A stretch of 64,000 bases of DNA from Aphrocallistes beatrix (Eukaryota > Porifera > Hexactinellida > Sceptrulophora > Aphrocallistidae). Of the stretch, positions 291 to 39,056 are shown in pieces. The notes beneath the pieces are model-generated. The model saw only the letters and a program-made list of their open reading frames with translations, was not told the DNA's origin and searched no databases. The first letter of the stretch is position 1; each line of letters begins with the position of its first letter. The DNA is taken from NCBI GenBank assembly GCA_963281255.1, contig OY725503.1, positions 3,658,001 through 3,722,000 on the forward strand, read 5' to 3'. The position numbers and the translations under genes are program-made.

Positions 291-1895
291 TCAATGTGTG
301 TCTTTAGTCACAAGAGGCAGTCTCTCGTAGAAGAGTACATAGGCGTGAGAATTTAACACGTGGTGAAGATCGGTTCTAAACCAATGGTCGTCACTAATAA
401 AATACCATTTTTGAAGTGGATCTGTATCCATTGGCTTGTCTGTTGCAGTTGCTCCTTCATCTTGTCCTTCTATTCTGCCAGATTTCGCACTGTCCTTGCT
501 AGGAATTTTAGATGGATTACTCCAATCTGCTATATTAACATAAGCCATGTAATGTCCTTCTACCATCCAACCTGTGTGATCCACTATTCCTCTCAGACCG
601 TACAGGATCTTGTCATCACAATCCTTAAGGACGGACGTGTTTGATACACAGAATGGTGACATGTCTAGGACCAGGGGGAACTTAATATGCTTGTCCACTT
701 TCTGCAGACGGGTTCCCGATTGAGAGAAACGGTTAAGGTGTATGGTGAGGACAGGTGCGAGGGTTTTGATGTGGAATTGCTTAACTGCGCTAGTGTATAT
801 GAGAGCATCATAGTCGATACTATCAGTGTCATCTTTCCTTTCGTCCTTATCTCCATCGGAGTTCGAGTTCGTATCTGAGGCTTTGGGTTGCTTACGAACG
901 AGTTGAGGGTTACAAATTTTGCAGACGTAGTCCTTCTCTAGGAATTTAGGCGAGAAAAATCGCATGAGATAGTATTCAAGAGAACCTTCAGGGTAATCTT
1001 CAGGATCATTCAGCCGTTTCAATTCTTTAGATTTGACTGCTCCTTCTTTTTCAGAGTTTGACTCTATTTCACTTTGAGGTTGATTGGAACTAGGAATATT
1101 ATCTTTATTATTAGGGGCATTGACTTCCTCACTTTCTGCTGGTAGAGGGAGTGAAATGTCAAGAAAATCTTCAGTTATATCAAATATAGCACCGCACCCC
1201 AGGCACTTCACTGTATCGATCATTTCCCCACCGAAAGTGTCATCAATAAAAGTACCTGTGAACACGAAAACGTTCTCAAATTCCTTTTTTGTATCTCAAA
1301 AGTTCCTCTCTCCCCTCAGGATAATTTTTAGAATGGGATTATGGTCATTGATATTAAAATGATCAAAAAATGCAGCTTTCAATCGTTTTATTTCCTCGTC
1401 TTTCACTATGTCGATTAACGAACGGAATAGTTCGTGACTATCCTGTTGTGAACCTTTAGAAAACTTTTTACATCTCGCGATTTGATTGTGCACGGCCCTT
1501 GGTGTGATAATTTTTTTCAAAGTTTTCTTGTCATGAGATTTCTCTGTTGCTTCAGGATGAGAGAATGTTTCTATTATCAAATGAAAAAGTTCTTTCGTCA
1601 GTATTCCTGGTTCGGCTTTCTTGCCGGAATAGGAGAATTTTAAAGTCTCTAAATCAGGCTGTTTCTTTGGAACGAGTTTGTACTCAGTACGGGTCATAGT
1701 GTGGAGCAGCTGTTCCCTAAAGGGACGGAGATAGAGCAGGTTCTGTAAAGTGGAGTTGAAGTAGCAAGTACTTCCTAGGTTGGAGAGTCCTAGTATACGC
1801 GGCACACTCTTGATTCTTTTCTCACAATCAAAAAATAGCTTTTCTTCTGAAATATCCTTTTTGTTCCATTTGAAAAATTCAAATAGATTTTCCAT
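291..1895 (-). pseudogene. Broken USP16/45-type deubiquitinase (array copy 1)
   Basis: A ubiquitin-specific protease copy closely related to the one at 5974-7548. Translation starts at 1895 (MENLFEFF) and reaches the Cys box (NLGSTCYFNS, Cys about residue 44) and the QQDSHELF block. It then meets an in-frame TGA at 1296-1298. Beyond the stop the same frame resumes with the zinc-ribbon cysteines (KCLGCG, CKICNP) and the His box (VEGHYMAYV). Alignment to the paralogue shows one base lost in an A-run near 1325 and one gained in the A-run near 1287, so about 14 codons are out of frame. Either this is a young pseudogene or two homopolymer errors mask an intact gene. It has no N-terminal zinc finger. 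The His box reads HTGWMVEGHY where the sister copy has HTGGMVEGHY. Confidence 0.8.
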
Positions 1896-2106: not shown

Positions 2107-4752
2107 CTATAGTACATGTTTAGTCACAAGAGGCAGCCTCTCGTAGAACAGTATGTAGGCTTGAGAGCGGAATACTTGGTTATGATCGGTTCTGGATATA
2201 TGAGAGTCACTAATATAGTACCATTCTTCTGTAGGCATCACGTGTTTATAGAGATGTGAGTCGGGGGAAGGTGTCGGTTGAAATTGTTGTTCGCAGGCGC
2301 AATTTTCTGATGTAAGCATTCTGTTGTCATCATTCTTCTGGGCTGGATCTAGTATATCCATTGACTGTTCTACTGAAGTTCTGTCTTCATTGTTTTTTTC
2401 CGTTGTGCTAGATTTCGCGCTTTTTTTGATAGAAATTATATATGGTACATTCCAATCGGCTATATTAACATATGCTACATAATGTCCAGCTCTTATCCCA
2501 CCCGAGTGATCCACTATTCCTCTCAGACCGTACAGGATCTTATCATCGCAGTCCTTAGGAACGGACGTGTCTGAGACACAGAAATGTGACATGTCCAGGA
2601 CCAGGGGGAAATCAACACGTTTTTTCAGTTTCTGCAGACCATATCCAGTTTGAGAGAAACGCTTGAGGTGTATAGTGAGGACAGGACCGACAGTTTTGAT
2701 GTGGAATTGCTTAACTGCGCTAGTGAATTTGAGAGCATCATAGTCGATACCATCAGTGTCATCATTTTCATCAGAGCTCGCATCTGAGGTCTCGTCCTGA
2801 TTACTAACGAGTTGAGGATTGCAACTGTTGCAGACATATTCCTCCTCTAAGAAAATAGGTGAGAAGAACCGCATGAGATAATACTCGAGAGAGTCTTTCG
2901 GATAATCATTAGCCATACGATTGAGTCTTTTCATTTCTTTAGATTTGACCTTCACTTCTTCTTCAGAATTTGACTCTATTCCACTTTGAGGTAAATTGGA
3001 AATAAGAATATTATATTTTTTACTGTATTCAGGTAAAGGCAACGAAATGTCCAGAAAATCTTCATTTAAATTCAATATGTTCTTACATCCCTCACACTTC
3101 ACAGTACTGAGCATATTCCCACCGAAAGTCTCATCGATAAATGTACCAGTAAACACAAAAATGTTCTCGAATTCACTAGCATACTTCTTCAAGTTCTTTC
3201 TATCCATAGAACAGTTCTTTGATTGAGTTTTATCGTTTTTGATGCTGAAATGTTCCCCAAAAGCTATCTTCAGTCGTTTTATTTCTTCATCCTTCACTAT
3301 GTCGATCATAAAACGGAACAATTCGTGGCTATCCTGTTGTGAACTATCAGAAAACTTTTCATGTTTTTTCGCGATTTCAAATCGCACGGCCCTAGGTTCG
3401 ACGATTTTTTTTCTAATCTTTTCGCCCAAAGTTCCCTTCATAGCTTCAGATTGGTAGACAGTTTTTTGTATCAGATTGAAAAGTTCCTTTGTCAGTTGTC
3501 CAGGTTCGGCTTTCTTGTCAGAGGCAAATTCGATAGTTTCTAGTTCAGGATGTTTCTTAGGAACGAGTTTGTACTTAGTACGAGTCATTGTGTAAGACAG
3601 CCGTTCTCTAAAAGGACGGAGATAGAGCAGATTCTGTAGAACAGAGTTGAAGTAACAAGTGTTCCCTAGATTGTAGAGTCCGATTACATGCATACTCTTA
3701 GTTCTGTCATTCTTGCAACCTTCAGATCGTTTCCGCTTCTTCTGACTTTCAGCAGCAGCATCTTTAGTTTCGCAAGTTGTGGACTCTGAATTATGCTTGC
3801 GCTTTTTACCAGATTTATTAATAGGATAAGAGTGGTTTAAAAACTCTGTCTGTTCTGTTAATTCATCAACTTCAATAGTTGACGTAGTCAATGGCAGAAC
3901 AGGAGATTTCGAAATTTTTGATTGCTGACATTCTTTTTCCATATTTCGCACTTTAGCAGTTAATTGTTTATTTTCATCATCTTTTTCCTGTATTATTGAT
4001 TCCAATTCTTTCACTTTATTCAAATAAAATACTTCAGGTTTGTCGAAGTGCTTTGATTCAAATGGTTTTTCGTGTTTCGGTAACTCAGATCGTTTGATTA
4101 ACGCCTCACATCCCATTTCCTTATATGGGCATGCTATTAGTGTGTTTGGACATTCTTTTTCAATGTGTGACTTTAATTCTTTTCGAATTACACTTTTCAA
4201 GCATTCGTTAGGACAAACTAAAGGAAATTCTAGGCAGATTTTGTTGTGATTCTCCAATATTTTGTATTGGATTGTAGTTCCACAATATTTACACTCGATA
4301 ATTTGAAGCTGACACTCGTTTTCGCAATGATTTTGTAGTTCAGATCGCTTCAAAAGAACGCCACATGCGTTAGAACAGTTCAGAATGAATTCTTCACACT
4401 CATCCAAGTGTGCATCGATTTCTCCCAGACTTCCTTTCCACACACATCCTCTCTTCATCAGAGGACACTTTACTCTCAATTTGGGGATATTATTTCTTTG
4501 TTTGGTCACCGGAATAAAGTCTTTCCCTTTCCTGCACACTTCACAAACTAATATCTGATTAGGTTCATTTACTAAACAAGCGTTTCGCATTAATCCGAGG
4601 CACTCAACACAAATATAAAAGTCCATTTCGGTTTCGCCCAAATCATTTTCTAGTAAATTCCATTTGTAGCCTCCATACTCATCTTTCCCAATTCCAATCA
4701 GCAGGAGTCGTTCTTTACAATCAATTGTATTGTAAATCTCTCGTCTAGCCAT
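2107..4752 (-). CDS. USP deubiquitinase fused to RING-remnant and TRAF-type zinc fingers
   Basis: An 881-residue intronless ORF. Residues 46-73 hold two Cys pairs (C48/C51 and C70/C73) laid out like the edges of a TRAF RING, but the middle ligands are missing. Residues 96-230 carry repeated Cys/His units typical of TRAF-type zinc fingers (C96, C103, H115, C119; C126, C130, H142, C147; C154, C157, H169, C173; C180, C184, H196, C201; C208, C215, H227). A predicted coiled coil spans about 240-275, then a basic linker. The USP catalytic domain starts near 355 (NLGNTCYFNS, Cys366) and includes QQDSHELF, a zinc ribbon (KCEGC, CNSCNP) and the His box RAGHYVAYV. It should cleave ubiquitin. The TRAF-like half suggests recruitment to a receptor or ligase complex, which is inference. 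The linker resembles that of the ZnF-UBP copy at 7992-10745, so the N-terminus appears to have been swapped. Confidence 0.85.
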   Translation of the reverse strand: MARREIYNTIDCKERLLLIGIGKDEYGGYKWNLLENDLGETEMDFYICVECLGLMRNACLVNEPNQILVCEVCRKGKDFIPVTKQRNNIPKLRVKCPLMKRGCVWKGSLGEIDAHLDECEEFILNCSNACGVLLKRSELQNHCENECQLQIIECKYCGTTIQYKILENHNKICLEFPLVCPNECLKSVIRKELKSHIEKECPNTLIACPYKEMGCEALIKRSELPKHEKPFESKHFDKPEVFYLNKVKELESIIQEKDDENKQLTAKVRNMEKECQQSKISKSPVLPLTTSTIEVDELTEQTEFLNHSYPINKSGKKRKHNSESTTCETKDAAAESQKKRKRSEGCKNDRTKSMHVIGLYNLGNTCYFNSVLQNLLYLRPFRERLSYTMTRTKYKLVPKKHPELETIEFASDKKAEPGQLTKELFNLIQKTVYQSEAMKGTLGEKIRKKIVEPRAVRFEIAKKHEKFSDSSQQDSHELFRFMIDIVKDEEIKRLKIAFGEHFSIKNDKTQSKNCSMDRKNLKKYASEFENIFVFTGTFIDETFGGNMLSTVKCEGCKNILNLNEDFLDISLPLPEYSKKYNILISNLPQSGIESNSEEEVKVKSKEMKRLNRMANDYPKDSLEYYLMRFFSPIFLEEEYVCNSCNPQLVSNQDETSDASSDENDDTDGIDYDALKFTSAVKQFHIKTVGPVLTIHLKRFSQTGYGLQKLKKRVDFPLVLDMSHFCVSDTSVPKDCDDKILYGLRGIVDHSGGIRAGHYVAYVNIADWNVPYIISIKKSAKSSTTEKNNEDRTSVEQSMDILDPAQKNDDNRMLTSENCACEQQFQPTPSPDSHLYKHVMPTEEWYYISDSHISRTDHNQVFRSQAYILFYERLPLVTKHVL

Positions 4753-5169
4753 CTCAAATGTTCATAATAATGATATATCTATCTAACTCAAAATAAAAAT
4801 ATTATATATCTGACTGCAAATGGAAATTTAGTGTAGGGAATCTAAAATATTCATATAAATCTATAAACTTTACTTTACTTTACTTTAACTTGAATATCTA
4901 AGTAAAACCTTCATTTCTGGACAAAATTCGTCAGAAATTAAGTTACAAGTAGGTTATAGATAGGAAATTTCAAGAGTATTGTGCCATTAAAATAAGAAAT
5001 TTATATGTATTTGCTAGATTTGGTACATCATATCATATTTTTCTACGATATACGCAAATGCAAAAGTAAAAATAGTGTTACAAAAAATTTTTCAAAAGAA
5101 TTCCATTTTATTGTGTACCAGTAGTCCCCTTAGGTTTGACTGTTTTATATGTGAAGTTGTTTTATTGTC
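4753..5169. other. Intergenic, no gene seen
   Basis: AT-rich spacer upstream of the TRAF-finger USP gene. A short run of TTTAC repeats lies near 4868-4890. No open frame of convincing length and no recognisable RNA gene was seen. Confidence 0.6.
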
Positions 5170-5600
5170 TCATTTGGCACAAAATTAAGTAAATCATGGC
5201 TATCCTATTGTAAACCTTCAGAAAAAAATATCTGTTTTCCTATTATTTCATTTGTACCACCTTAGGTGAGTCGGAATAGATGTTATTTTTTGTTGTGAAA
5301 TATTCCTGTTATAGGATCCCTTCGTGGCTTCAAACTGGTAGGTACTTGCTCTTAGAAATTTAAATCATTTTATCGTTTTTCTAGACTCGCATTTATTTTC
5401 AGAATTTATGAATGAGTATGTACTCAGTACGGGTTATGGTACAAATCAGATGTTCTTTAAAGGGGCGGAGGTGGAGCAGATTCTGTAGAACAGATTTGAA
5501 CTAACAAGTATTCCCTAGATTGTAGAACCCTGTCATGTGCGTACTCTTAGTTATGCTTCTCATAATCAACAGACTGTTTCCTTTTTACAATTTCTACAAC
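5170..5600 (-). pseudogene. Decayed USP relic in the array
   Basis: Scattered blocks match the Cys-box half of the neighbouring USP genes in the same order. Around 5185-5225 there is a version of the segment encoding SQQDSHEL. Around 5325-5345 there is the segment ending near the SEA(T/M) residues. Around 5415-5560 there is the segment running from TRT-Y through LLYLRP to the NLGNTC region, then GLYN and TKSM. Many indels and stops remove any open frame. The tail near 5555-5585 resembles the linker of the ZnF-UBP copy more than that of the finger-less copies. This is an old, dead fifth member, partly deleted before the sister of copy 1 was inserted. Confidence 0.7.
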
Positions 5601-5973
5601 TCTATATATTTGTAAGCTAGAGACTTCGAATTATTTTTGTTCTTATGAGCAGATTTTTTATAAGAAAAGGAGTTTAGAGATGTCGGTATGCAAAGTATTG
5701 CCTGTTTTTCCTAAATCGGTATCGGATTGTCCTTTCCTTGATTTTGTTTTAGCATTAAGTTTACTAGTTAGTGGCAGATAAATTATTTTCGATAGGGTTA
5801 CTACTACAAAAATATCTTGAGTGGTCAAACCATTAACGAAGAGCACCGATTATTAACTAATACAAATAGACGTACATCACAAAACATTTGTGTTGGAGGT
5901 CACAGAGCAATAAAAATACTAATAAGCTATGCAATCCATGCTAAATATGATACAAATAAAAAATAATCTATCA

Positions 5974-7548
5974 TCAATTTGTGTCTTTAGTCACAAGAGG
6001 CAGTCTCTCGTAGAAGAGTACATAGGCGTGAGAATTTAACACATGGTGATGATCGGTTCTAAACCAATGGTCGTCACTAATAAAATACCATTCTTGAAGT
6101 GGATCTGTATCCATTGGCTCGTCTGTTGCAGTTGTCCCTTCATCATGTCCTCCTATTTTGCTAGATTTCGCACTGTCCTTGCTAGGAATTTTAGATGGCT
6201 TACTCCAATCTGCTATATTAACATAAGCCATGTAATGTCCTTCTACCATCCCACCTGTGTGATCCACTATTCCTCTCAGACCGTACAGGATCTTGTCATC
6301 ACAATCCTTAAGGACGGACGTGTCTGAGATACAGAATGGTGACATGTCTAGGACCAGGGGGAACTTAATATGCTTGTCCACTTTCTGCAGACGGGTTCCC
6401 GATTGAGAGAAACGGTTAAGGTGTATGGTGAGGACAGGTGCGAGGGTTTTGATGTGGAATTGCTTACTGGCATCAGTGAATGTGAGATTATCAAGGTTAA
6501 TACTCTCAATGCTATCCTCCTTTTCGTTTTTATCTCCATCGGAGTCTGAAGGCTTGTCCTGCTTACTAACGAGTCGAGGGTTACAAATTTTGCAGACGTA
6601 GTCCTTCTCTAGGAATTTAGGCGAGAAAAATCGCATGAGATAGTATTCAAGAGAACCTTCAGGGTAATCTTCAGGATCATTCAGTCGTTTCAATTCTTTA
6701 GATTTGACTGCTCCTTCTTTTTCAGAGTTTGACTCTATTTCACTTTGAGGTTGATTGGAACTAGGAATATTATCTTTATTATTAGGGGCATTGACTTCTT
6801 CACTTTCTTCTGGTAGAGGGAGTGAAATGTCAAGAAAATCTTCAGTTATATCAAATATAGTACCGCACCCCAGGCACTTCACTGTATCGATCATTTCCCC
6901 ACCGAAAGTGTCATCAATAAAAGTACCTGTGAACACGAAAACATTATTAAATTCATTTCTGTATCTCAAAAGTTCCTCTTTATTAGCTTCAGGATAGTTT
7001 TTTGATTTGGATTTTCGGCCATTGATGTCAAAATGATCCAAAAATGCAGCTTCCAATCGTTTTATTTCCTCGTCTTTCACCATGTCGATTAACGAACGGA
7101 ACAGTTCATGACTATCCTGTTCTGAACCTATAGAAAACTTTTTATATTTTCTCGCGATTTGATTATGCACGGCCTTTGGTGCGAGAAATTTTGTTTTCTT
7201 GTCATGAGATTTCTCCGTTGGTTCAGACTGAGAGATTGTTTCGTTAATCAAATAAAAAAGTTCTTTCGTCAGTATTCCGGGTTCGGCTTTCTTGCCGGAA
7301 TAGGTGAATGTTAAAGTCCATAAATCAGGTTGTTTCTTTGGAACGAGTTTGTACTCAGTACAGGTCATGGTGCGGAGCAGCTGTTCCTTAAAGGGACGGA
7401 GATAGAGCAGGTTCTGTAAAGTTGAGTTGAAGTAGCAAGTACTTCCTAGGTTGTAGAGTCCTATTATAGGCGGCATACTCTTGATTTTGCTTCTCTTATC
7501 GGTAGGACGTTCTCCTGAAATCTCCTTTTTTTTACTTTGTTTGCTCAT
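5974..7548 (-). CDS. USP16/45-type deubiquitinase catalytic domain (array copy 3)
   Basis: An intact 524-residue ORF consisting almost entirely of a USP catalytic domain. After a short basic leader (MSKQSKKKE) comes the Cys box GLYNLGSTCYFNS with the catalytic Cys at residue 38 and the oxyanion Asn five residues before it. Next come EQDSHELF, the zinc-ribbon pairs (KCLGCG and CKICNP) and the His box GGMVEGHYMAYV. It ends in the C-terminal strand AYVLFYERLPL. Compared with human USP16/45 (about 815-823 residues) it lacks the ZnF-UBP domain and most of the catalytic-domain insertion. It is the closest sister of the broken copy at 291-1895, with duplicated flanks on both sides. The predicted role is ubiquitin removal; substrates are unknown. 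Without ZnF-UBP it should not sense free ubiquitin C-termini. Confidence 0.9.
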   Translation of the reverse strand: MSKQSKKKEISGERPTDKRSKIKSMPPIIGLYNLGSTCYFNSTLQNLLYLRPFKEQLLRTMTCTEYKLVPKKQPDLWTLTFTYSGKKAEPGILTKELFYLINETISQSEPTEKSHDKKTKFLAPKAVHNQIARKYKKFSIGSEQDSHELFRSLIDMVKDEEIKRLEAAFLDHFDINGRKSKSKNYPEANKEELLRYRNEFNNVFVFTGTFIDDTFGGEMIDTVKCLGCGTIFDITEDFLDISLPLPEESEEVNAPNNKDNIPSSNQPQSEIESNSEKEGAVKSKELKRLNDPEDYPEGSLEYYLMRFFSPKFLEKDYVCKICNPRLVSKQDKPSDSDGDKNEKEDSIESINLDNLTFTDASKQFHIKTLAPVLTIHLNRFSQSGTRLQKVDKHIKFPLVLDMSPFCISDTSVLKDCDDKILYGLRGIVDHTGGMVEGHYMAYVNIADWSKPSKIPSKDSAKSSKIGGHDEGTTATDEPMDTDPLQEWYFISDDHWFRTDHHHVLNSHAYVLFYERLPLVTKDTN

Positions 7549-7991: not shown

Positions 7992-10745
7992 CTAGAGTAC
8001 ATGTGGATCTTTAGTCACAAGAGGCAGTCTCTCGTAGAATAGCATGTAGGCTTGAGAACTGAACACGTGGTCATGATCGGATCTGGACATGTGGGAGTCA
8101 CTGATATAGTACCATTCTTCTGTAGGCATCACGTGTTCGTAGAGGTGTGGGTCGGGTGTAGGGGTCGGTTGAGATTGTAGTTTGCAGGCGCAATTTTCGG
8201 ATGTAAGAGACATTCTGCTGTCTTCGTTTTCTTGAGCTGGGTCTGTATCCATTGGTTGGTCTTTTGAAGCTCTTTCTCCCTCATTTTCTCCCGCTGTTCC
8301 AGATTTCGAGATATCCTTGCTGGGAATTTTAGCGGGCACATTCCAATCTGCAATATTAACATAAGCTACGTAATGTCCACCAGACATTCCACCGGAGTGG
8401 TTCACTATTCCTCTCAGACCGTACAGGATCTGGTTATCATAATCCCTAGGAACGGACGTGTCCGATAGGCAGAAAGGTGACATGTCAAGCACCAGAGGGA
8501 ACACAATATGTTTGTTTACTTTCTGGAAACGGTATCCCGATTGATAAAAACGCTTGAGGTGTATAGTGAGGATAGGTGGTAGGGTTTTGATGTGAAACTG
8601 CTTATGCGCATTGCTGAAATGGAGAGTATCGAGGCCAGTGTTCTCAGTACTATCTTCTTTTTCGTCTTTATCTTCATCAGAGTCCGTGTTCGTATCTGAG
8701 CTAACTAAACAAGGGTTGCAAATGGTGCAGAGATAGTCCTTCTCCAGAAATTCAAGTGCGAAAAATTCCTTGAGATAGTGTTCAAGAGAATCTTCGGGGT
8801 AAACTGCAAGTTCATTGAGTCGGATCACTTTTTTAGATTTGACTTCTAAGTATTTTTCAGAATTTGCCCCTACTTCGTTTGAGGGCTGCTTGAGTGGGTG
8901 ATCGGATTCATCTATTTCGCGATTAGATTTATCTACATTGCTATTAGGTTCATTTATATCCATTCGATCATCAGAAAGTTGACTACTATTCTCTTCTGGT
9001 CCTGTGTGGCATTCCTCAGAATCAGGATTCTCTCCGTTTTCTGTCTGTGGGTCAGTATTCTCGGTTCTAGAAGTATTTGAGTGACCTCCCGTCTCCTCAT
9101 TATTCTGGTTATTCTGAATTCCTGACTCCAGATTTGACTTATTTATTTCATCACAAGGGGGATGATCTGTTGGTGGCATGTCCAAATCTTGCTCTGGACT
9201 ATTCTCACTTTTCTTCACGTTGCTTCCATCCCCTATACCCTCCTCTCCACTCCTGCTGTCATTCCTTGGGTTAGATGTGTTCAAGTTTTTCAATTCAATG
9301 TTCTCAGTTTCTCGACCAGTATTACTGGTTTCTAAACTCTGGAAGGTTTGGAGATCCATTTTCTTACTGCTCTTTTTCTTTAAATTCTTTTTTTCAGCTT
9401 TGTTCAACTGCCTCTGTTGCTTGCTAGTTAGTTTCTTATTCTGTGGTTGAGTACGGACCTTCCCTTTCTTACTGTCTACTGGGACTGGGAGAGACAGTGA
9501 AATGTCCAGAAAATGTTCAATTGTGTCAGATACGTTACCGCAGTCCAGACAGTTCACTGTACTGATCATTTTACCGCCGAAGGTGTCATCGATAAAAGTT
9601 TTAAAAAACACGAACACGTTTTTAAATTCGCTAGCGTATTTCCTTAGGAGTTTCTTTTTGTCTTCAGGATAGTTTTTGAATTGGGATTTATGATCTTTGA
9701 TATCAAAATGATCCAAAAATGCAGCTTTCAGTCGTTTTATTTCCTCGTCTTTCACTATGTCTATCAGGATGCGGAGCAATTCATGACTATCTTGCTGTGA
9801 ACCGTTTGAAAACTTTCTATGTTTTCTCCCGATTTCATTCTGTACACTCCTGGGTGTGATAACTTTCTTGGAAGACTTTTTGCTGTGAGATCTCTCCGTT
9901 GCTTCAGACTGGTAGGCCGTCTCTTTTATCAATTTGAAAAGTTCTTCTGCTAGTTTTCCAGGTTCGGCCTTCTTGTCAGAGTAAGCGAATGTTATAGTCT
10001 CTAAATCAGGATGTTTCTCCGGAACAAGTTTATACTTAGTACGGGTCATGGTGTGGTGCAACTGTTCTCTAAAGGGACGGAGATAGAGCAGATTCTGTAG
10101 GGCCGAGTTGAAGTAACAGGTGTTCCCCAGATTGTAGAGTCCTATTACACGCATACTCTTAGTTCTACTACCTTTGCAATCAACAAGTTGTTTATTTTCT
10201 ACTACGATATAGGATTGATCTGAAACTGACTTAGGCCTCTTCAGGTTTTTAGCAGCAGCCTCCTTAGCTTTGAAAGTTACTGACTCCAACTTTCCCTTCA
10301 CTAATTTAGGATCTACGAATGCATCGCATTTGTAACACCATATTTGCCAGGTGTTAAAGCTAAAAGTCAAACAATGGCTGTTCTCAGCCTCGTAATGCTT
10401 AAGACTATGAGTGTTAGTGGAGTAACGGCCACATCTCGTATATAAACATTGCATGCACAACCAGAGATCTTGATCCTCAGCATTTCCCTTCTGCTCTGTA
10501 TTTCCTTCACACTTAATGCAATCTATGCACTTAACAGACATTATTGGTTGTTTCTTGTCTTTTTTTCCTTTGTCATTGTCCGGTTGGTACTTCCTAATAT
10601 GGATACAGTTTTCACTTTCTTTGTCATTCAAAGGAGAATCTTCAGTATTCTGAATGACTTCTCCATCTGATTCAGGAGTTACTACCCTTGAGTTTTCTTG
10701 GTTTTCTTCTTTCTTTTGAAAGTTTTTGTCTTCGTCACTTGACAT
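7992..10745 (-). CDS. USP16/USP45-like deubiquitinase with ZnF-UBP (array copy 4)
   Basis: A 917-residue intronless ORF and the only array member with the full USP16/45 layout. A ZnF-UBP domain lies at about 45-142 (C47, H49, C73, C76, WLCMQC at 95-100, C105, the HSLKHYE block, H124, WCYKCD at 136-141). The catalytic domain begins near 198 (IGLYNLGNTCYFNS, Cys210). QQDSHELL and the CLDC/CTIC zinc ribbon follow, with a long Asn/Glu/Ser-rich insertion at about 400-590. Then come the His box GGMSGGHYVAYV and the terminal AYMLFYERL. Human USP16 and USP45 are about 820 residues and have many introns. This is probably the parent from which the shorter copies arose. Known relatives act on histone H2A and on repair and motility substrates; the substrate here is unknown. 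Confidence 0.9.
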   Translation of the reverse strand: MSSDEDKNFQKKEENQENSRVVTPESDGEVIQNTEDSPLNDKESENCIHIRKYQPDNDKGKKDKKQPIMSVKCIDCIKCEGNTEQKGNAEDQDLWLCMQCLYTRCGRYSTNTHSLKHYEAENSHCLTFSFNTWQIWCYKCDAFVDPKLVKGKLESVTFKAKEAAAKNLKRPKSVSDQSYIVVENKQLVDCKGSRTKSMRVIGLYNLGNTCYFNSALQNLLYLRPFREQLHHTMTRTKYKLVPEKHPDLETITFAYSDKKAEPGKLAEELFKLIKETAYQSEATERSHSKKSSKKVITPRSVQNEIGRKHRKFSNGSQQDSHELLRILIDIVKDEEIKRLKAAFLDHFDIKDHKSQFKNYPEDKKKLLRKYASEFKNVFVFFKTFIDDTFGGKMISTVNCLDCGNVSDTIEHFLDISLSLPVPVDSKKGKVRTQPQNKKLTSKQQRQLNKAEKKNLKKKSSKKMDLQTFQSLETSNTGRETENIELKNLNTSNPRNDSRSGEEGIGDGSNVKKSENSPEQDLDMPPTDHPPCDEINKSNLESGIQNNQNNEETGGHSNTSRTENTDPQTENGENPDSEECHTGPEENSSQLSDDRMDINEPNSNVDKSNREIDESDHPLKQPSNEVGANSEKYLEVKSKKVIRLNELAVYPEDSLEHYLKEFFALEFLEKDYLCTICNPCLVSSDTNTDSDEDKDEKEDSTENTGLDTLHFSNAHKQFHIKTLPPILTIHLKRFYQSGYRFQKVNKHIVFPLVLDMSPFCLSDTSVPRDYDNQILYGLRGIVNHSGGMSGGHYVAYVNIADWNVPAKIPSKDISKSGTAGENEGERASKDQPMDTDPAQENEDSRMSLTSENCACKLQSQPTPTPDPHLYEHVMPTEEWYYISDSHMSRSDHDHVFSSQAYMLFYERLPLVTKDPHVL

Positions 10746-37526: not shown

Positions 37527-39056
37527 TCAAATATCGTATCTACTCTTACTCTGTGCAGGTCCTTCTGAATGTTTGTCCACGTGGCGATAATGTTGTAGTT
37601 CAGTGGTTTCCTGCTGCACAAGACCATAATCAAAGATGATGTCAGCATCCTGTGTCCGCCCCTCTACAATTGCATCATCATCGTCATCCCAATCCCCTGC
37701 TTCGAGTACGACCGTTCTCTCTCCAGGTCCGAATCCAAACGGGAGGAACTTCCTCATTCTAGCTTCAAGGAGTTCTTGTCTGTCATGCTCACTATTATTC
37801 TCGGTTGAGTCCAAGGAGTGTGTGTTTGTAGTCGTTTTTATGGCAGCGCTTAGAGTAGCCAATTCGTTCACCTGTTCTTGATTGTAAATTAAGTTAACTA
37901 CATAACATGGCAACAACTGGGAAGCGTTTTTGACGACGTAAAATGTACCACCATCATAAATTTGGTATTTAGTCCCACTCATTACAGTGCTTTTGAGACC
38001 AGGAATAAGAGCACAGACTAACAGTTTAGAAGAATTAGAGTAGCTTAAACTGACAACGGGACTAGTACCAACATATATCCCAACTCCGAAAGCAGATCCA
38101 TTTACCACTCTCACTCCCTCAGTTCCAGGCATCAATAAACCTTTCGTAACGATGGATGGTAAGTTATTGACAGCAGTTCCATGGTACACGATTTCCAGTG
38201 TGTTAGAGAAGTTGCGAGCACGCTTATAATTTTTAGCTAAGGAATTGATGTCCCTTTGTGTCGCTATAAATCGCTTGGCAAGATCGGAACGTAATATATT
38301 TTCAATGCCTCCGATTTTGTAGCCGTGATCTCGACATTGCTTGATCAGCTGGTGAATAGATATGAAGCTTGAAGGACTGAACTCTTCTGGTTTCTTTTTA
38401 TCTTCGATTTCAGTATTATTATTTTCTGGGGGCTTATGAGATGGAACTGGTGTAAAAAGAGAAGCTTGCTCGTACAAAGACTGATCCAACTTTTTATTCT
38501 TCTTTGATAAAATTGTTACCTCACAGGATTCATGCGCTAACTGTAATAGGTTATATACCATGGGGCCACCCCTCTGATCCAAAGCACTTAGAAGTAATTT
38601 GTCATAAAGAGAGTCTGTATCTGAAAAGGTCAGTATTTGAGATTCAGAGTTGTTTATCTCAAAGATTGGTATTGAATTCGGATAGTCGGGGGGTAATTGA
38701 AATGTAATTGAGATCTCATCCTTTTTATTAATATTTGAGTTGCCAAACGTAAGAGCGACTTCAAAAGTTCTTTCATCCTTGCTTAAGAACTTAACTATTT
38801 CATAAATAGATGTTAAAACAACTTTTTCGTCGGTAACAACTTGTTCACATTCTTCTTGATCTATAGTTTTGAAAATAGTTTCGTCGACTTTACTTTCATC
38901 AAGGATCTTAAGAAACTCGGCTTGAAATTGAATTGTCAAGCTCTCTAACTCAGATTCTGATTCGAAAGTGCTATTAGGATCTGTATCAGTACCTGAGATT
39001 GCAGACTCTTCAGTTGTTACAGACACTTCATCAGGGGGAGGAGGTTTAGCGGCCAT
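37527..39056 (-). CDS. RWD domain plus ADP-ribosyltransferase (PARP-like) domain protein
   Basis: A 509-residue intronless ORF. Residues of about 45-185 fit an RWD domain (VVLTSIYEIVKFL, then SITFQLPPDYPNSIPIFEI), a fold related to ubiquitin-conjugating enzymes. Residues of about 280-400 fit a PARP/ART catalytic core: EIVYHGTAVNNLPSIV supplies the NAD-binding His, and GVGIYVGTSPVVSLSYS supplies the Tyr. The third position, Glu in poly-ADP-ribosylating enzymes (PEYLI in tankyrase), is Cys here (LLPCYVVNL). A mono-ADP-ribosyltransferase or an inactive reader is therefore more likely than a polymerase. The C-terminus has an acidic patch. I do not know a named orthologue. Confidence 0.78.
   Translation of the reverse strand: MAAKPPPPDEVSVTTEESAISGTDTDPNSTFESESELESLTIQFQAEFLKILDESKVDETIFKTIDQEECEQVVTDEKVVLTSIYEIVKFLSKDERTFEVALTFGNSNINKKDEISITFQLPPDYPNSIPIFEINNSESQILTFSDTDSLYDKLLLSALDQRGGPMVYNLLQLAHESCEVTILSKKNKKLDQSLYEQASLFTPVPSHKPPENNNTEIEDKKKPEEFSPSSFISIHQLIKQCRDHGYKIGGIENILRSDLAKRFIATQRDINSLAKNYKRARNFSNTLEIVYHGTAVNNLPSIVTKGLLMPGTEGVRVVNGSAFGVGIYVGTSPVVSLSYSNSSKLLVCALIPGLKSTVMSGTKYQIYDGGTFYVVKNASQLLPCYVVNLIYNQEQVNELATLSAAIKTTTNTHSLDSTENNSEHDRQELLEARMRKFLPFGFGPGERTVVLEAGDWDDDDDAIVEGRTQDADIIFDYGLVQQETTELQHYRHVDKHSEGPAQSKSRYDI

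Follow-up and report, generated by a model that had tools for sequence, protein, structure and literature searches.

The window analysed here, a stretch of 64,000 nucleotides (C17:3658001-3722000 in a genome of 100.5 Mb and 28 contigs), carries a gene in which a TRAF-like zinc-finger module is joined to the catalytic domain of a ubiquitin-specific protease (USP), together with further USP copies (Table 1). The fused gene, U3, runs from an ATG at position 4752 to a stop codon ending at 2107, exactly on the coordinates and strand given in a preliminary description of this DNA. That description had reported TRAF fingers and a USP core in one uninterrupted frame. Pfam recognises both: zf-TRAF scores 78.4 bits, in two stretches, and UCH scores 151.4 bits (cut-off 23.9) over residues 357-870, covering positions 1-254 of the 254 in the profile. 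U3 is a real TRAF-finger/USP fusion in a single frame, and the earlier observation is confirmed. No match was obtained for any of three proteins (3/3) in NCBIfam, a library of bacteria and archaea.

Table 1. Features of U3 and of the neighbouring USP copies, with positions in the window.
Feature	Position	Strand	Basis or remark
U4, USP copy	291..1895	-	one frame with a single in-frame TGA (codon 200 of 535)
U3, fused TRAF-like/USP gene	2107..4752	-	one open frame, 881 aa
USP (UCH) catalytic domain, USP16/45-like	2143..3684	-	residues 357-870
Asp849, third catalytic residue	2206..2208	-	aligned with human USP16
Catalytic His757	2482..2484	-	aligned with human USP16
Catalytic Cys366	3655..3657	-	aligned with human USP16
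Linker	3691..3852	-	residues 301-354; common to array copies U5, U6, U9
Fusion junction	3843..3852	-	blastn ends: C7 homology stops at 3852, U9 homology starts at 3843
TRAF-like module	3853..4752	-	residues 1-300; 68-75% identity to five C7 loci
Short coiled-coil-like stretch	3913..4035	-	about residues 240-280; by eye
Five TRAF-type zinc fingers	4048..4467	-	residues 96-235; Pfam and motif pattern
Cys cluster C48, C51, C59, C70, C73	4534..4611	-	Cys pattern; RING remnant of the preliminary description
5′ flank of U3	4753..4848	-	blastn homology to flank of L032 (C7:316694-317596)
Broken USP N-terminal fragment, upstream of U3	5288..5656	-	kin to the fragment opening U6 and U7
U2, USP without ZnF-UBP	5974..7548	-	Pfam; 524 aa
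U1, USP16/45-like with ZnF-UBP	7992..10745	-	Pfam; 917 aa

Several genes of the window are single open frames. One further open frame, at 37527-39056 (-), combines an RWD domain with a PARP catalytic domain. An exon-by-exon search of the genome returned no match to Wnt, which is not proof of absence, and two matches to nuclear receptors. This combination fits best with a glass sponge, a group reported to live without Wnt signalling (PMC5684314). Published glass sponge genomes are compact and rich in single-exon genes, with 12,409 single-exon transcripts and 19,578 genes given for A. vastus (PMC10282587). Few introns alone are no mark of a glass sponge, however, because O. minuta, with 1.59 introns per gene, is described as similar to or slightly below demosponges (PMC10280926), and the table in the A. 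vastus paper shows many single-exon transcripts for further sponges too (PMC10282587).

The USP core of U3 is intact, as had been claimed. Cys366, His757 and Asp849 are present, as are the zinc ribbon cysteines C553/C556/C641/C644. With the full UCH profile above its curated cut-off, a catalytic Cys, His and Asp/Asn, and a zinc ribbon, U3 has the sequence features expected of a member of the USP family. The best match of this half to a solved structure is human USP16 (8wg5, E 1.8e-47), followed by USP15 (3.8e-21); among solved structures, the domain is thus nearer to USP16 than to other USPs, and the USP16/45-type assignment of the catalytic half stands. An N-terminal ZnF-UBP is expected of the USP16/45 subfamily, yet Pfam finds no zf-UBP in U3.

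The TRAF half carries five fingers, at the upper end of the four to five previously counted. They start at residues 96, 126, 154, 180 and 208 and all are complete (C-C-H-(C/H)). Five fingers were reached in 0 of 5000 same-residue shuffles of U3 (mean 0.18, maximum 4), the pattern counted, C-x(2-6)-C-x(11-12)-H-x(3-7)-C/H, having been written to fit the fingers of U3. A profile built from ten family members matches the solved structures of TRAF4 (E 7e-10) and TRAF6 (E 1.4e-7). The coiled coil mentioned in the preliminary description is retained in reduced form, as a short coiled-coil-like stretch judged by eye. At this place, after the fingers and ahead of the USP, the sister copy U6 has a 42-bp unit repeated 7.4 times (L013:5269-5580), which encodes a 14-residue repeat that is itself coiled-coil-like.

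The cysteines ahead of the fingers had been read as a RING that lost its ligands. The profile searches proposed alongside that reading recovered zf-TRAF and UCH; the RING thought possible was matched neither in U3 (E≤0.1) nor in ten relatives scanned (E≤0.05). U3 has five cysteines only, against the eight ligands of a RING E3 cross-brace. Moreover, the arrangement C-x2-C-x7-C-x(9-11)-C-x2-C precedes the fingers in 23/27 rows; of the remaining four, two (U6 and U7) do not have this region, and in the other two (L055 and L057) the spacing departs from the pattern. All five cysteines are invariant in a ten-row family alignment. The odd pattern is therefore not caused by the fusion, since non-fused relatives have it as well, and we reject a cluster broken by the fusion event. 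Searched against solved structures, the cluster hit the four-Cys zinc finger of XPA alone, at non-significant values (E 0.062 and 0.089). It lies at the place of a TRAF RING, because the TRAF6 match starts just behind the RING region of TRAF6. A RING remnant may thus be a fair guess, its ancestry being unproven. If the guess is right, C48, C51, C70 and C73 are presumably the first zinc site, following RING topology. As these four are the only paired cysteines, the cluster would bind one zinc at most and no RING E3 action is expected.

TRAF proteins bind receptor tails via their MATH/TRAF-C domain. U3 has the zinc fingers of the TRAF family, but no MATH/TRAF-C match was found in it (E≤0.1) or in ten relatives including the non-fused L032 (E≤0.05; one of the ten is a fragment). 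Genome-wide there are eight MATH matches, seven on C6 and one on C1. All are weak (best E 9.7e-5), and very divergent MATH domains could therefore escape detection. The preliminary description had proposed a receptor-recruited deubiquitinase, and TRAF-type fingers are indeed present in U3. However, the receptor-binding part of a TRAF is found neither in the fusion nor in L032, and the MATH matches of the genome lie elsewhere, on C6 and C1. Direct receptor recruitment is therefore unsupported, and we consider it scarcely probable.

By comparison, zf-TRAF matches are abundant. The genome has at least 151, a lower bound as 150 of 640 candidates were scored, and many lie in tandem clusters, above all on contigs C6 and C9; there are therefore many possible partners for the TRAF module of U3. 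Two TRAF-like genes, L050:1411-2949 (+) and L059:1468-3537 (+), encode C-terminal parts that resemble each other on visual inspection and are matched by no Pfam family; these parts could represent a divergent domain of effector or MATH-like type. A third, L054:1012-2355 (-), shows a weak C-terminal thioredoxin match below the cut-off (E 0.0069).

The nearest kin of the fused TRAF halves are five loci at 294-372 kb on contig C7. Two of these are open (L032 and L033, 323 and 324 codons), L034 sits behind part of another gene, and L035 and L036 contain stops. Homology between U3 and L032 at the DNA level (blastn) extends from 96 bp before the U3 ATG to window position 3852 (residue 300), and the frame of L032 has 320 residues from its own Met. 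The fused part thus amounts to nearly all of the C7-type protein (300 residues out of about 320) and is not the front half of a TRAF-like protein as first suggested. U3 is made up of an almost complete C7-type TRAF-like gene, which has brought along 96 bp or more of 5′ flanking sequence, in frame with a USP16/45-type catalytic unit.

Around the C7 TRAF-like genes lie single-frame genes that belong to a different family of the ubiquitin system. The only member of it that was scanned, L070:1-2529 (-), is a single open frame in which a UBC (E2) domain (UQ_con, 99 bits) precedes a U-box (E3; 48.5 bits). Of the U-box matches in the genome, 16/28 fall within C7:223-390 kb, where relatives of the N-terminal part of the family are found too. 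Moreover, L034:1453-3531 (-) (C7:294.5-296.6 kb) places a TRAF-like module behind the N-terminal part of this UBC/U-box family, in a frame of 693 aa. No UBC/U-box fusion is evident among the ten literature matches listed.

The partner of the TRAF half comes from a tandem array. UCH matches occur at 61 places in the genome, 15 of them within C17:3630.8-3668.2 kb, and zf-UBP is matched once in this array, in U1. A search with the linker and early catalytic part of U3 hit 23 places, 22 of which are in the array; the other is a 30-residue match on C1. The TRAF half occurs, complete or in part, in five units; three of them (U3, U6, U7) are open and keep the catalytic residues, and two are broken. 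U5 (C17:3656 kb) has a frame break, and in U11 (C17:3632 kb) the TRAF and USP parts lie in different frames. U6 and U7 are open over 944 and 862 aa. They are without the TRAF start, the Cys cluster and fingers 1-2, a USP fragment being joined directly before finger 3, so that among the open fused copies only U3 has the full TRAF module. Of the remaining units, U8 is broken, and the ZnF-less U9 is a USP preceded by part of a second USP. U10 (C17:3633376-3638205, L011/L012, outside the window) has three USP domains in one 1609-aa frame.

The catalytic residues vary across these copies. Cys, His and Asp are kept in U3, U6 and U7, with Tyr replacing the His of the QQDSHEL box in U7. Both broken fused copies, U5 and U11, have Asp at the position of the catalytic Cys. 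Within U10, the first domain (U10a) is without the catalytic His, the second has Cys, His and Asp, and the third (U10c) has Ser for Cys. Part of the array is therefore dead or binding-only. These losses are what would be expected if the fusion served as a decoy that merely binds ubiquitin; the triad retained in U3, U6 and U7 argues against this, and we give such a role little credence.

The TRAF halves of U3, U5, U6, U7 and U11 form one clade in both trees that we built (support 100/99 and 99/100). In the first, which held 21/27 non-fused loci after a filter on Cys content and motif had dropped L034, L041, L050, L054, L055 and L057, the fork joining the fused clade with the C7 loci has a support of 94/87. 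In the second, with 22/27 non-fused loci after another motif filter had dropped L048, L049, L051, L052 and L056, the corresponding forks have 82/54 and 86/74. A one-off assembly accident is rejected, as five copies share the one TRAF clade. The USP tree does not unite the fused copies (three label changes; one clade in 0% of bootstrap trees). The catalytic half of U5 groups with U2 (98/96), and U3, U8, U9 and the trio U6/U7/U11 form one group (99/100) with no resolved internal order. We read the USP half of U5 as a probable later exchange, and the TRAF half as having probably been lost from U8 and U9 or never present there. Independent fusions instead of one are held unlikely. A single fusion, followed by duplication, deletion and exchange within the array, would account for these units.

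A one-step exchange of the ZnF-UBP for the TRAF module, as initially pictured, does not follow from these data: zf-UBP is confined to U1 within the array, and the linker of U3 matches U9. As U9 and other USP copies of the array are without the ZnF, its loss may have come first. It is also conceivable that the locus makes two proteins, the TRAF-like and USP parts being separated by alternative transcription or an internal start. A ZnF-less USP does stand alone in the array (U2), and trans-splicing is reported in 4% of long reads in the glass sponge A. vastus (PMC10282587). Nevertheless, U3 is one stop-free frame, and neither junction nor linker is interrupted in U6 or in the U5 TRAF half, which makes separate products improbable. 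Relatives elsewhere were sought by pattern. None was confirmed in viral_contigs (81 pattern-matching stretches for A2 and 67 for A1) or in genome_contigs (27 for A2, the sole pattern used there).

A tandem array with this turnover may produce chimeric frames at random, and U3 could then be one that has not yet broken. The broken units U4, U5, U8 and U11 adjoin it and the array has many breakpoints. Moreover, changes on several own branches look neutral. In the TRAF half of U3, 29/36 changes are nonsynonymous (P 0.59), which shows no constraint and is similar to the TRAF part of the non-fused L032 (30/37, P 0.64). The same holds for the USP branches of U6 (19/26, P 0.28), U7 (21/26, P 0.66) and the broken U11 (33/44, P 0.30). 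Against this, the own USP branch of U3 has fewer nonsynonymous changes than neutrality predicts: 24/39, with a neutral share of 0.796 (P 0.007), and 12/20 when U9 is added to the sisters (P 0.036). Pairwise comparisons of U3 with its relatives give dN/dS values of 0.25-0.46 wherever dS was estimable, which excludes L037. We also simulated neutral evolution of the U3 frame, with substitutions only and no indels. With d set to 0.08, which is half of the synonymous distance separating U3 from U5 in the TRAF half, the runs gave a mean of 8.7 stops and the frame stayed open in 1/2000. At other distances it stayed open in 44/2000 (d=0.03), 8/2000 (d=0.05) and 0/2000 (d=0.135). Therefore, luck is an unlikely reason for the open frame of U3, and selection on it is likely. 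Three open fused copies with catalytic residues also speak against a decaying chimera, and we regard that explanation as unlikely overall. This does not extend to every copy. The docking half of U3 evolves quickly, and maintenance is less clear for U6 and U7; their own-branch tests and the USP tree give no support for the maintenance of all three open copies.

Taken together, the best explanation is a deubiquitinase that would be directed, probably to TRAF-like paralogues, by a TRAF-like module for docking and oligomerisation. We put this reading at a probability of about 0.48. The fusion would be made as one protein, probably expressed from the promoter of the TRAF-like gene itself. Its TRAF module may dock and oligomerise, the most plausible partners being further proteins of the large TRAF-like family. 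The contact would run via the fingers or the coiled coil, a likelier route than direct recruitment by a receptor. Ubiquitin removal would thereby be brought to TRAF-like complexes, making the protein a hard-wired antagonist or brake. More speculatively, this sponge lineage may shuffle parts of the ubiquitin system in tandem arrays that evolve fast, in a way comparable to the diversification of immune receptors in other animals. A TRAF-like sensing or adaptor family might then have both built-in writers (the UBC and U-box genes among the C7 TRAF-like genes) and built-in erasers (the TRAF-USP fusions), with one docking module serving activation and shut-off. We offer this wider scheme as a rather doubtful conjecture.

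Of known systems, USP16 and USP45 are the closest to the catalytic half. The core of U3 is most similar to human USP16 and the neighbouring U1 combines a ZnF-UBP with a USP, whereas U3 is without a ZnF-UBP and has a TRAF-like module in front. With TRAF4 and TRAF6, both matched by the family profile, U3 shares TRAF-type fingers; unlike them it has no detectable RING profile or MATH/TRAF-C and has a protease attached. USP7 consists of a MATH domain and a USP, and so resembles U3 in joining a TRAF-related part to a USP. However, it has the MATH domain and not the TRAF fingers, the reverse of U3, and its best match (E 1.6e-8) falls far short of that of USP16. TRAF proteins usually have their partner deubiquitinases, such as A20, CYLD and USP25, in trans. 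In U3 the pairing is covalent, and the junction is placed to about 10 bp. A TRAF-finger/USP fusion was not found among the matches listed from the open-licence PMC literature, going by titles and the starts of abstracts. Because donor relatives, the parent array and broken sisters survive in one genome, the steps by which an adaptor gains an enzyme are directly testable, and U3 is a testable case of a signalling adaptor gaining its own 'off' enzyme. Lastly, the AIG1 family of the glass sponge A. vastus, whose domain is tied to pathogen recognition, is likewise a tandem expansion of mostly single-exon genes; it differs in its domains, and the section on that family mentions no fusion (PMC10282587). 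U3 and its array would add the ubiquitin system to what has been published on single-exon genes expanding in tandem in glass sponges (PMC10282587).
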